From assembly GCA_913055215.1 (NCBI GenBank), contig CAJXJP010000008.1:1-32293 (forward strand): a stretch of 32,293 bases of DNA, written 5' to 3'. A model generated the notes under the pieces. It made no database searches. It saw nothing but the letters and a program-made list of their open reading frames with translations, and was not told the origin of the DNA. Of the stretch, positions 364 through 26,543 are shown piece after piece. The first letter of the stretch is position 1, and the number at the start of each line of letters is the position of its first letter. The translations under genes were made by a program, and so were the position numbers. The stretch is from an uncultured Candidatus Altimarinota bacterium. Its GTDB lineage: Bacteria > Patescibacteriota > Gracilibacteria > BD1-5 > UBA6164.

Positions 364-391
364 TTGACAAAGAAACTTATTTTCCTAAACT
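364..391 (+). promoter_or_regulatory. Promoter of the padR unit
   Basis: A consensus -35 TTGACA (364-369) lies 16 bp from TAAACT (386-391). The predicted start point, near 398, falls inside the first half of the inverted repeat at 391-412, which fits repression by steric block. Confidence 0.6.
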
Positions 392-476
392 ACCTTGTAA
401 TACAAAGTAGTAATTTTTATGATAAAGCCTATAGAAATTACTTTTTTTGTAGAATACTACTATGTAATACAAGGTA
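391..476 (+). promoter_or_regulatory. Long inverted repeat, candidate PadR operator pair and leader hairpin
   Basis: Arms at 391-412 and 455-476 are reverse complements of each other over 22 positions with two mismatches. Each arm contains the 9-bp palindrome TGTAATACA (396-404 and 463-471). PadR-family repressors usually autoregulate by binding ATGT/ACAT-type palindromes, so these are likely two operators. In RNA the arms could pair into a long stem that buries the AAGG preceding the padR ATG. Confidence 0.6.
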
Positions 477-3676: not shown

Positions 3677-3725
3677 AAATGGCTAAAAATTGATAAATTA
3701 AATTTTTTTACGAAACACAGTATAT

Positions 3726-3767
3726 AAAAAAAGCTAGTATTTACAAACAATACTAACTTTTTTTATA
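3726..3767. terminator. Bidirectional terminator
   Basis: AAAAAAAG plus TAGTATT pairs with AATACTA plus CTTTTTTT around a 7-nt loop. On the minus strand it lies just after the small lipoprotein gene and before ttcA. Confidence 0.75.
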
Positions 3768-3788
3768 TACAATAGATATATGGACTAA

Positions 3789-24616: not shown

Positions 24617-25333
24617 ATGAAAATCTTAGAAGTAAAAAGTATACATAAAAAATTAGCTGGAAAAAAAGTTCTTAAAGACGTAACATTTTCAGTAAAATCA
24701 GGTGAAATATATTGATTTCTATGACCAAATGGGGCAGGAAAGACAACAACTATGAAATGTATTATGGGATTAATTGAACCAGAACAAGGAGAAATTTTTG
24801 TATTTGGAGAAAAATGATTAACTCAAAAATCAAAAGAAAAAATAGGATTTATGCCAGAAAATACTTATTTATATAAGCATTTAACAGGAAGAGAATTTTT
24901 AGATTTCAATGGAAAATTTTTCGGATTAACTGGAGAAAAATTAGAAAAAAGAGTCAATAAATTACTTAAAAAAGTTGGATTAGAAGAAGCAGCAGATAAA
25001 AGACTTTCAAGTTATTCAAAAGGAATGCTTCAAAGAGTTGGACTTGCACAATCGATTATAAATAAACCAAAATTACTTTTCCTTGATGAACCAATGAGTG
25101 GACTTGATCCAATTGGGCGTAAAATGGTAAAAGATCTAATAGTTTCGCTTAGAGATGATGGCACTACAGTTTTCTTTAATACACATATTTTAGCAGATGT
25201 TGAAAGTATTTGTGATAAACTGAGTATTATTAATAAAGGTCACTTAATCGTTGAATCTAAAAAAATATCAGATGTAGAATGAGATTTAGAAGATTTTTTC
25301 ATTAAGAAAATTGAAGAACATTCAAAAAAATAA
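24617..25333 (+). CDS. ABC transporter ATP-binding protein (ABC-2 type)
   Basis: 238 residues, a complete ATPase domain. Walker A is GPNGAGKTT (36-44), whose first Gly is TGA. The Q-loop region is [21 protein letters not shown] (in part), the signature SYSKGMLQ (132-139) is a variant of LSGGQ typical of the ABC-2/drug-exporter group, Walker B is LLFLDEP (153-159), the D-loop is SGLDP, and the H-loop is FFNTHIL. No permease gene adjoins on either side, so the membrane partner is elsewhere. TAGAAT (24602-24607) ends 9 nt before the ATG. Confidence 0.92.
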
Positions 25334-25357
25334 AAAACTCCCAATTGGGAGTTTTTT
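25333..25357. terminator. Bidirectional terminator, ABC ATPase and ftsA
   Basis: AAAACTCCC, AATT, GGGAGTTTT with A-run and T-run flanks. It lies between two convergent genes and touches the ftsA stop codon. Confidence 0.88.
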
Positions 25358-26543
25358 ATTTTTTTTCAATATGTGAAATAGCTTTTTTTAGAGATTCTTC
25401 AATAGGATCTTTTTCTTTTTTGATAAAATCAAGTGCGCTCATCATCATAGCATAGATGTTAAGGTTTGATTTTGATGAATCGATATTTTCTAAATATTGA
25501 ATTTTCGGTGTAACAAAAGAAATATCTTTTGCAATTTTGAATGAATATTTATTTAAATTCGTTTCTTGCAAATAATTTTTTAAAAATTTATTTGCTCATC
25601 ATCCAATCATAAAGAAATCACTTGGACAAACTTGTTCTTCTAGTATTTCTTCAAGAGAGACGATGAGAATATCTTTAAAAATATTTAAAAATTCTTCTTT
25701 TTCTTCTCAATATTTATCAGAATCTATATTTTTAATAATTTCAATTTTTGTCTTATCTTGGTTTTTTTGAATATTCGCAATAAGAGCATCTATTCAAACA
25801 GGAACTTTTTTTACTCACAAGATTTGTTTATCTTTTTGAACGATAACAGAGGTGTGAGCATTTCCAATATCAACGATAACAATATCTTTTTTCTTTTTAA
25901 AAAGTTTTGTGATCGCAAATTCACAAGGAAGTATTTGAATTACTTTTTTATCAAGTTCTCTTCCTATTTTTTGTATAATTTCATACTGATGTTGAGGAAT
26001 GAAAATATTTAATAATCCAAGGTTAATTTGTTCAGGAGTAGCATCTAATAGTTTTTTTGTGGCAGTTCCATCAACTTTTATTTCAGAAACTCATCCGATA
26101 ATTAATTTTAAATCACGGGCTTTGTATCCAGATGTTGAGAGAATTTTTTTATAATGTTTTTTTACTGCAATTTGTTCTAAATTATCCATAATAGAAGCCA
26201 ATTCACTTTTTTGAATTGGCTTTTTTGGAAGTGAACGAATATGATTCACTTTGCTTGATTCAATAAATAATTCATCAAAAGGAATATTCATAATAACTTC
26301 AGAAATTTTTTCTCAAGCGTCAGCTTCTGCCTTTTTTATAGCACTTTTAATGCTTTTACAGGCGGCTGGAATATTTGTAAATTCTTGATGAAGAGAAATT
26401 TGTGAATCTTGCCTTTTTTCTCAATATCATATTAATTCTATATCACGATTATGGAAAGAACAAATGGCAACACGTACTTTATAGGTTCAAATATCTATGA
26501 TTCCTATAACTTGAGGAGCCAATTTTTTCTTTATAAAATTCAT
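25356..26543 (-). CDS. ftsA: FtsA-like actin-fold cell division protein
   Basis: 395 residues with an actin/Hsp70 ATPase fold. The phosphate-1 motif GIIDIGTYKVRVAIC is at residues 14-28; KSAIKKAEADAGEKISEVIMNIP follows (in part), which matches the FtsA region before the inserted 1C domain. Phosphate-2 is IVIVDIGNAHTSVIV, with VPVGIDALIANI after it, and the adenosine motif is FFMIGGGANKFLKN. The C-terminus ends with an acidic/basic helix that may serve as membrane tether. PilM is the other actin-like candidate, given the nearby pilN/pilO-like genes, but the order and 1C region favour FtsA. It is the last gene of a unit with the TPR protein (9 bp upstream). Confidence 0.7.

Follow-up and report, generated by a model that had tools for sequence, protein, structure and literature searches.

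We conclude that positions 391-476 very probably hold two palindromic operators that serve the PadR protein encoded immediately downstream, and that the padR-pspC operon would be subject to dual-operator autorepression. This region lies near the start of the 32,293-nucleotide stretch of DNA that was analyzed as a whole (hereafter the window). The initial annotation had proposed that repressor binding to two PadR operators acts together with an RNA stem that masks a ribosome-binding AAGG. The operator half of this proposal, in the form of predicted sites, is supported by conservation, by position relative to the promoter and by the precedent of cdPadR1 (PMC5050560), while the masking half is not supported. 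The features on which the argument rests are as follows:

391-409, strand not applicable: predicted operator 1, TACCTTGTAATACAAAGTA, a palindrome with 8/9 half-pairs symmetric
458-476, strand not applicable: predicted operator 2, TACTATGTAATACAAGGTA, a palindrome with 7/9 half-pairs symmetric
481-813, + strand: padR, 110 aa, read with code 25 (TGA=Gly), PF03551 at 1.1e-17
836-2425, + strand: gene for a PspC-domain (PF04024) membrane protein, 529 aa, co-oriented with padR

The centres of the two operators are 67 bp apart, and operator 2 begins 23 bp 5' of the padR ATG. The arms of the repeat (391-412 and 455-476) match at 20 of 22 positions in inverted register, bearing out the initial description of two 22-bp, near-perfect reverse complements, and the palindrome assigned to each arm, TGTAATACA, is indeed found in both (396-404 and 463-471). 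That description missed that each arm is itself palindromic. A repeat search detected the same elements in two forms, an inverted pair (386-412 and 455-481; 85% complementary over 27 nt) and a direct repeat (389-409 and 456-476; 86% over 21 nt), indicating that each arm is approximately its own reverse complement. The two arms are thus complementary to one another because both are copies of one palindromic operator, and no RNA function is needed to account for the pairing. Single operators from different genomes provide a control, since they are unable to form a stem with each other; these were complementary at 14.5 of 19 positions on average, and 12% of pairs reached the 17 found in the window. 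Similarly, when arm 1 of the window was compared with operators from 49 other loci in reversed orientation, the mean was 15.3, with 7/49 at 17 or above. This cross-genome complementarity implies that a shared consensus explains most of the complementarity between the arms. One point that counts against the operator reading is that the two 19-mers of the window match slightly better in inverted register (17/19) than in direct register (16/19, counted by eye), a difference that duplication of an operator would not by itself require.

The window has many AT-rich inverted repeats, with 78 pairs in its first 1,200 bases, and a chance or low-complexity repeat devoid of function might be suspected on this ground, but we regard this as having almost no probability. 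The symmetric 19-mer pattern occurs without mismatch at just two places in the 1.39-Mb genome, both of them upstream of padR, and the site is conserved across the class and the phylum, as detailed below. Moreover, inverted pairs matching at 20/22 or better within 120 bp number four in the real window, and none were present in two mononucleotide-shuffled copies. Conservation, the genome-wide uniqueness of the mismatch-free sites and the shuffled-window control together refute the chance reading. The other three inverted pairs in the window are located at:

316-362: overlapping the repeat at about 317-361 described below with the promoter
3720-3770: an inverted repeat of 21/22, possibly a terminator
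25321-25368: an inverted repeat of 20/22, possibly a terminator

A third TGTATTACA is present at 2390-2398, towards the end of the gene for the PspC-domain protein, with flanks unlike those of the operator.

The padR product is a member of the PadR family, with a PadR winged-helix domain that scores 64.2 bits against a cut-off of 27 for PF03551, and probably belongs to subfamily 2. Subfamily 2 proteins are characterized by a length of about 110 aa and a single C-terminal dimerization helix that carries a conserved Trp. The closest solved chain is 5h20 (1.4e-31), and in the sequence alignment W97 of the 110-aa protein aligns with a Trp of that chain. The genome reads TGA as glycine, with five in-frame TGA codons in padR and thirteen in the gene at 836-2425. 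Since padR adjoins the gene for the PspC-domain membrane protein, the pair displays the adjacency characteristic of the HAAS-PadR-PspC dyad. Residues 1-171 of the partner gave no Pfam match besides PspC at E up to 1; a likeness to HAAS/DUF1700 is apparent by eye, and by inspection the N-terminal part contains a GEP compatible with the GxP motif.

Protein searches found padR in 21/48 genomes of the family, 25/77 of the order and 55/353 of the class. An upstream 19-mer agreeing with the consensus at 14/19 or more positions was present at 24 of the 25 order loci. For the class, there were 57 matches, of which all but the five weakest were fetched, giving 52 loci; 49 of these carry an upstream site of at least 13/19 and 45 one of at least 15/19, nearly all with one strong site. 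Loci with no site of 13/19 (L021, L033, L034, L055 and L061) were counted as misses and omitted from the operator profiles. In the phylum sample, for which the cut-off was 15/19 within 200 bp and from which the already-counted loci L076 and L078 were omitted, 11/21 loci reached the threshold, compared to 0/420 shuffled stretches of other phylum loci. One locus, L065, is the same as L032 and falls outside the phylum sample, and the phylum count without it is 10/20. Columns 391-409 of operator 1 are invariant in the three genomes with two sites (the window and its closest relatives, G040 and G041), and we consider operator 1 to be the orthologue of the single operator found elsewhere. Located in the predicted promoter of padR and conserved along with the gene, the palindromic site has the placement expected of PadR autorepressors with palindromic operators. 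When up to two mismatches were allowed, the genome of the window contained the pattern no more often than a reversed control (6 vs 9), and no further target of a wider regulon is named. Neither TGTATTACA nor TGTAATACA was found under PadR in the literature searched, which lay mostly outside subscription journals.

The distribution of the module showed further features. A scan of a genome-contig collection returned three relatives, among which only L032 carried the operator. This locus (L032/L065), in a genome labelled Cyclobacteriaceae, encodes a PadR that is 59% identical, a partner that appears PspC-like by eye, and the operator TACCTTGTAAAACAAAGTA; the module is either shared since ancient times or has been transferred. 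Within the class, the occurrence of padR is patchy, and the proteins of G144 and G135, which belong to distant families and are without in-frame TGA, are closer than those of most loci from the same family. The patchy occurrence and the close proteins in distant families hint at transfer.

The position of operator 1 relative to the predicted promoter is informative both for repression and for what the mRNA would contain. The relevant elements are:

about 317-361, + strand: perfect inverted repeat of 21 bp that has a 3-nt loop and a T-run, probably a terminator for ORF 59-325 upstream, absent from the program's terminator list
364-369, + strand: -35 element (TTGACA) of the predicted padR promoter, 10/12 together with TAAACT at a spacer of 16
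386-391, + strand: -10 element TAAACT, the last base of which is the first base of operator 1 and of arm 1

The inverted repeat at about 317-361 probably ends the upstream gene, separating ORF 59-325 from padR. A generic promoter scan of the window was not significant (27 sites vs 26.5 expected), and it is the fixed position across genomes, rather than the scan itself, that supports the promoter. A TTGACA/TATAAT-like pair, with a -10 element that ends on the first base of the operator or immediately ahead of it, exceeded the 5% level of shuffles in 16/20 family loci, and the same geometry was beyond shuffle level in 20/50 operator loci overall. In G040 and G041, TTTACA, 16 bp and TATACT are found at the same place. 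Transcription usually starts some 6-9 nt after the -10 box, which puts the expected 5' end of the padR mRNA near 396-400, within operator 1. From this placement, operator 1 appears to be positioned as for blocking initiation. In addition, given that the -10 element ends on the first operator base, the expected mRNA would be without the UACCUU strand that must pair with AAGG.

This last point bears directly on the proposal that the element is dual-purpose, with the arms serving as DNA operators and also as a 22-bp RNA stem that hides the AAGG and represses padR translation. The motif concerned is:

471-474, + strand: AAGG, which belongs to the right half of operator 2 and precedes the ATG by 6 nt, a Shine-Dalgarno distance; not conserved

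The stem is predicted to form as had been guessed, with a fold of -28.5 kcal/mol (z -4.75) for 385-500, and the AAGG is fully paired (predicted unpaired probability 0.00) if the transcript begins at 391; however, for transcripts that begin from 397 to 401 the probability rises to 0.33-0.50, and it is at about 396-400 that transcripts from the conserved promoter should begin, without the masking strand. The predicted accessibility of the ATG is about 0.35 whichever start is used and is independent of the stem. The pairs responsible for masking (391-396 with 471-476) are intact in the window (6/6) but broken in the relatives (3/6 in G041 and 1/6 in G040), where operator 2 keeps ACTATGTAATAC (G041) or GTATGTAATAC (G040) and has lost AAGG without a compensating change. 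The compensatory changes for which the initial annotation had suggested comparing related genomes are missing from the masking pairs; across the stem, 1/23 pairs, at the inner edge, had changed on both sides (AU to UG), which is no excess over shuffles (171/500). Homologous loci keep a TGTAATACA-type site and not a second complementary arm, which is the outcome that the initial annotation had named as refuting its proposal. Nor is the AAGG a shared feature: at Shine-Dalgarno distance it was found at 0/49 other operator-bearing loci, and AAGG or a similar motif was present there at 2/55 padR loci, namely the window and a distant locus without the operator. Shine-Dalgarno-like 4-mers precede 3/30 gene starts in the window (59, 481, which is padR, and 20680) and are missing from the other 27, and the window genome seems to start translation mostly without such motifs. 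A search of Rfam identified no known family, the two matches (E 0.56 and 0.68) being far below gathering scores. Based on the folding from alternative starts, the pair counts in the three two-site genomes and the Shine-Dalgarno surveys of 55 padR loci and 30 window gene starts, translational masking was rejected, and we judge the dual-purpose reading to be highly improbable. The RNA stem, which is unconserved in relatives, is most likely a by-product of the paired operators. Equally improbable, in our estimation, is a variant in which silencing depends on the start site, so that the short mRNA from padR's own promoter would be translatable, and read-through RNA from upstream would fold into the 22-bp stem and hide the AAGG.

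A different role for RNA is suggested by the leader. The two operators are separated by about 50 nt, and this segment is predicted to fold locally as an alternative to the long stem between the arms:

about 401-451, + strand: local RNA hairpin (predicted fold)

According to this reading, the segment would form a 5'-terminal hairpin that stabilizes the mRNA, and operator 2 would be a second site of older origin that was moved away when the segment was inserted. The hairpin has a z of about -5 in the window and -3.3 in G040, but with -1.8 it is not significant in G041; the comparison comprises three AT-rich sequences, and the insertion is presumed. The spacing offers some further support. Among class loci, 18/50 have a weaker second site 17 bp downstream of the principal operator (e.g., L023, L038, L042, L045 and L051), compared to 1.1 at the average offset, and 67 equals 17 + 50. 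We consider the leader hairpin possible, if rather unlikely, and it is an addition to the operator reading and not a replacement for it. An offset of 10 also stands out (20/50 loci), and this signal is taken as arising from half-site overlap within one operator. The frequent 17-bp second sites suggest that adjacent PadR dimers are a usual arrangement, and they indicate that second dimer sites are ordinary in the group, the lineage of the window differing mainly in distance. By pattern, the 67-bp two-site layout is confined to 3/353 class genomes (the window, G040 and G041), so that the conservation of operator 2 is weakly tested, a further point against the operator reading. In the window, operator 2 scores nearly as high as operator 1 (27.4 vs 29.2). 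Operator 2 of G041 is weaker, at 67 bp, with a score of 15.3 and a background chance of 7e-6 per position; that of G040 is degenerate, at 67-68 bp, with a score of -0.9 (background P of about 4e-4 per position).

Taken by analogy, the proposed dual-operator autorepression in the window fits precedents from cdPadR1, Listeria and HAAS/PspC systems. In Clostridioides difficile R20291, cdPadR1, a subfamily 2 protein with proposed autoregulation, binds two inverted repeats of its own promoter, of which one lies 25 bp from the ORF and the other, 52 bp upstream, covers the predicted -35/-10 region (PMC5050560). The window likewise has two inverted-repeat sites upstream of its own padR, one of them near the ORF. 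Its sites, however, are predicted from sequence, with TACCTTGTA-like half-sites, a spacing of 67 bp and operator 1 after the -10 box, whereas the cdPadR1 site is given as TACT(N11-12)AGTA, a motif found at about 200 places in that genome compared to the two mismatch-free places of the window motif (PMC5050560). LmrR of Lactococcus lactis is also described as a PadR dimer that binds palindromic motifs upstream of its own gene, with multiple dimers proposed (PMC4534193), and its consensus is ATGT/ACAT, the spacer being 8-10 nt long (PMC5050560). The predicted sites of the window resemble this arrangement upstream of a padR-family gene, but LmrR regulates an ABC exporter. The Listeria proteins LltR, LftR and LstR are reported to be small PadR-type autorepressors, and LftR to bind its own promoter region at an operator that is in part palindromic (PMC6624303, PMC6457526). 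The operon of LltR also encodes a DUF1700 membrane protein (PMC6624303), in contrast with the PspC-domain partner in the window. Finally, a HAAS-PadR dyad linked to PspC has been proposed to function in membrane-stress signalling (PMC11237479). As in that dyad, a stand-alone PadR wHTH gene lies beside one for a membrane protein with PspC, but the partner in the window is without a Pfam DUF1700/HAAS match, its N-terminal likeness having been noted by inspection.

From these data and precedents, we infer that a PadR dimer would occupy operator 1, after the -10 box and over the start site, and would block RNA polymerase, so that padR and the pspC-domain gene behind it would be autorepressed. Operator 2, the right half of which includes the AAGG before the ATG, may serve as a second dimer site that tightens repression through cooperative or multi-dimer binding, as a roadblock or by looping. 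Repression would presumably be released upon a membrane or ligand signal, perhaps via the partner membrane protein.

These findings also illustrate how operator palindromes within a 5' leader can be mistaken for a regulatory stem in the RNA; the two are distinguished by reading the arms as a direct repeat, by where the -10 box lies and by relatives that carry a single site. Should start-site-dependent silencing prove true despite its low probability, padR would be expressed solely upon transcription from its own promoter, and one half-operator would double as a ribosome-binding site in this lineage. If the 67-bp layout is functional, it would extend the known range of multi-site PadR promoters by one geometry. 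Bacteria of this group, which read TGA as glycine, are mostly uncultured, and the predicted operator provides a concrete, testable sequence for a PadR-PspC stress operon in them.
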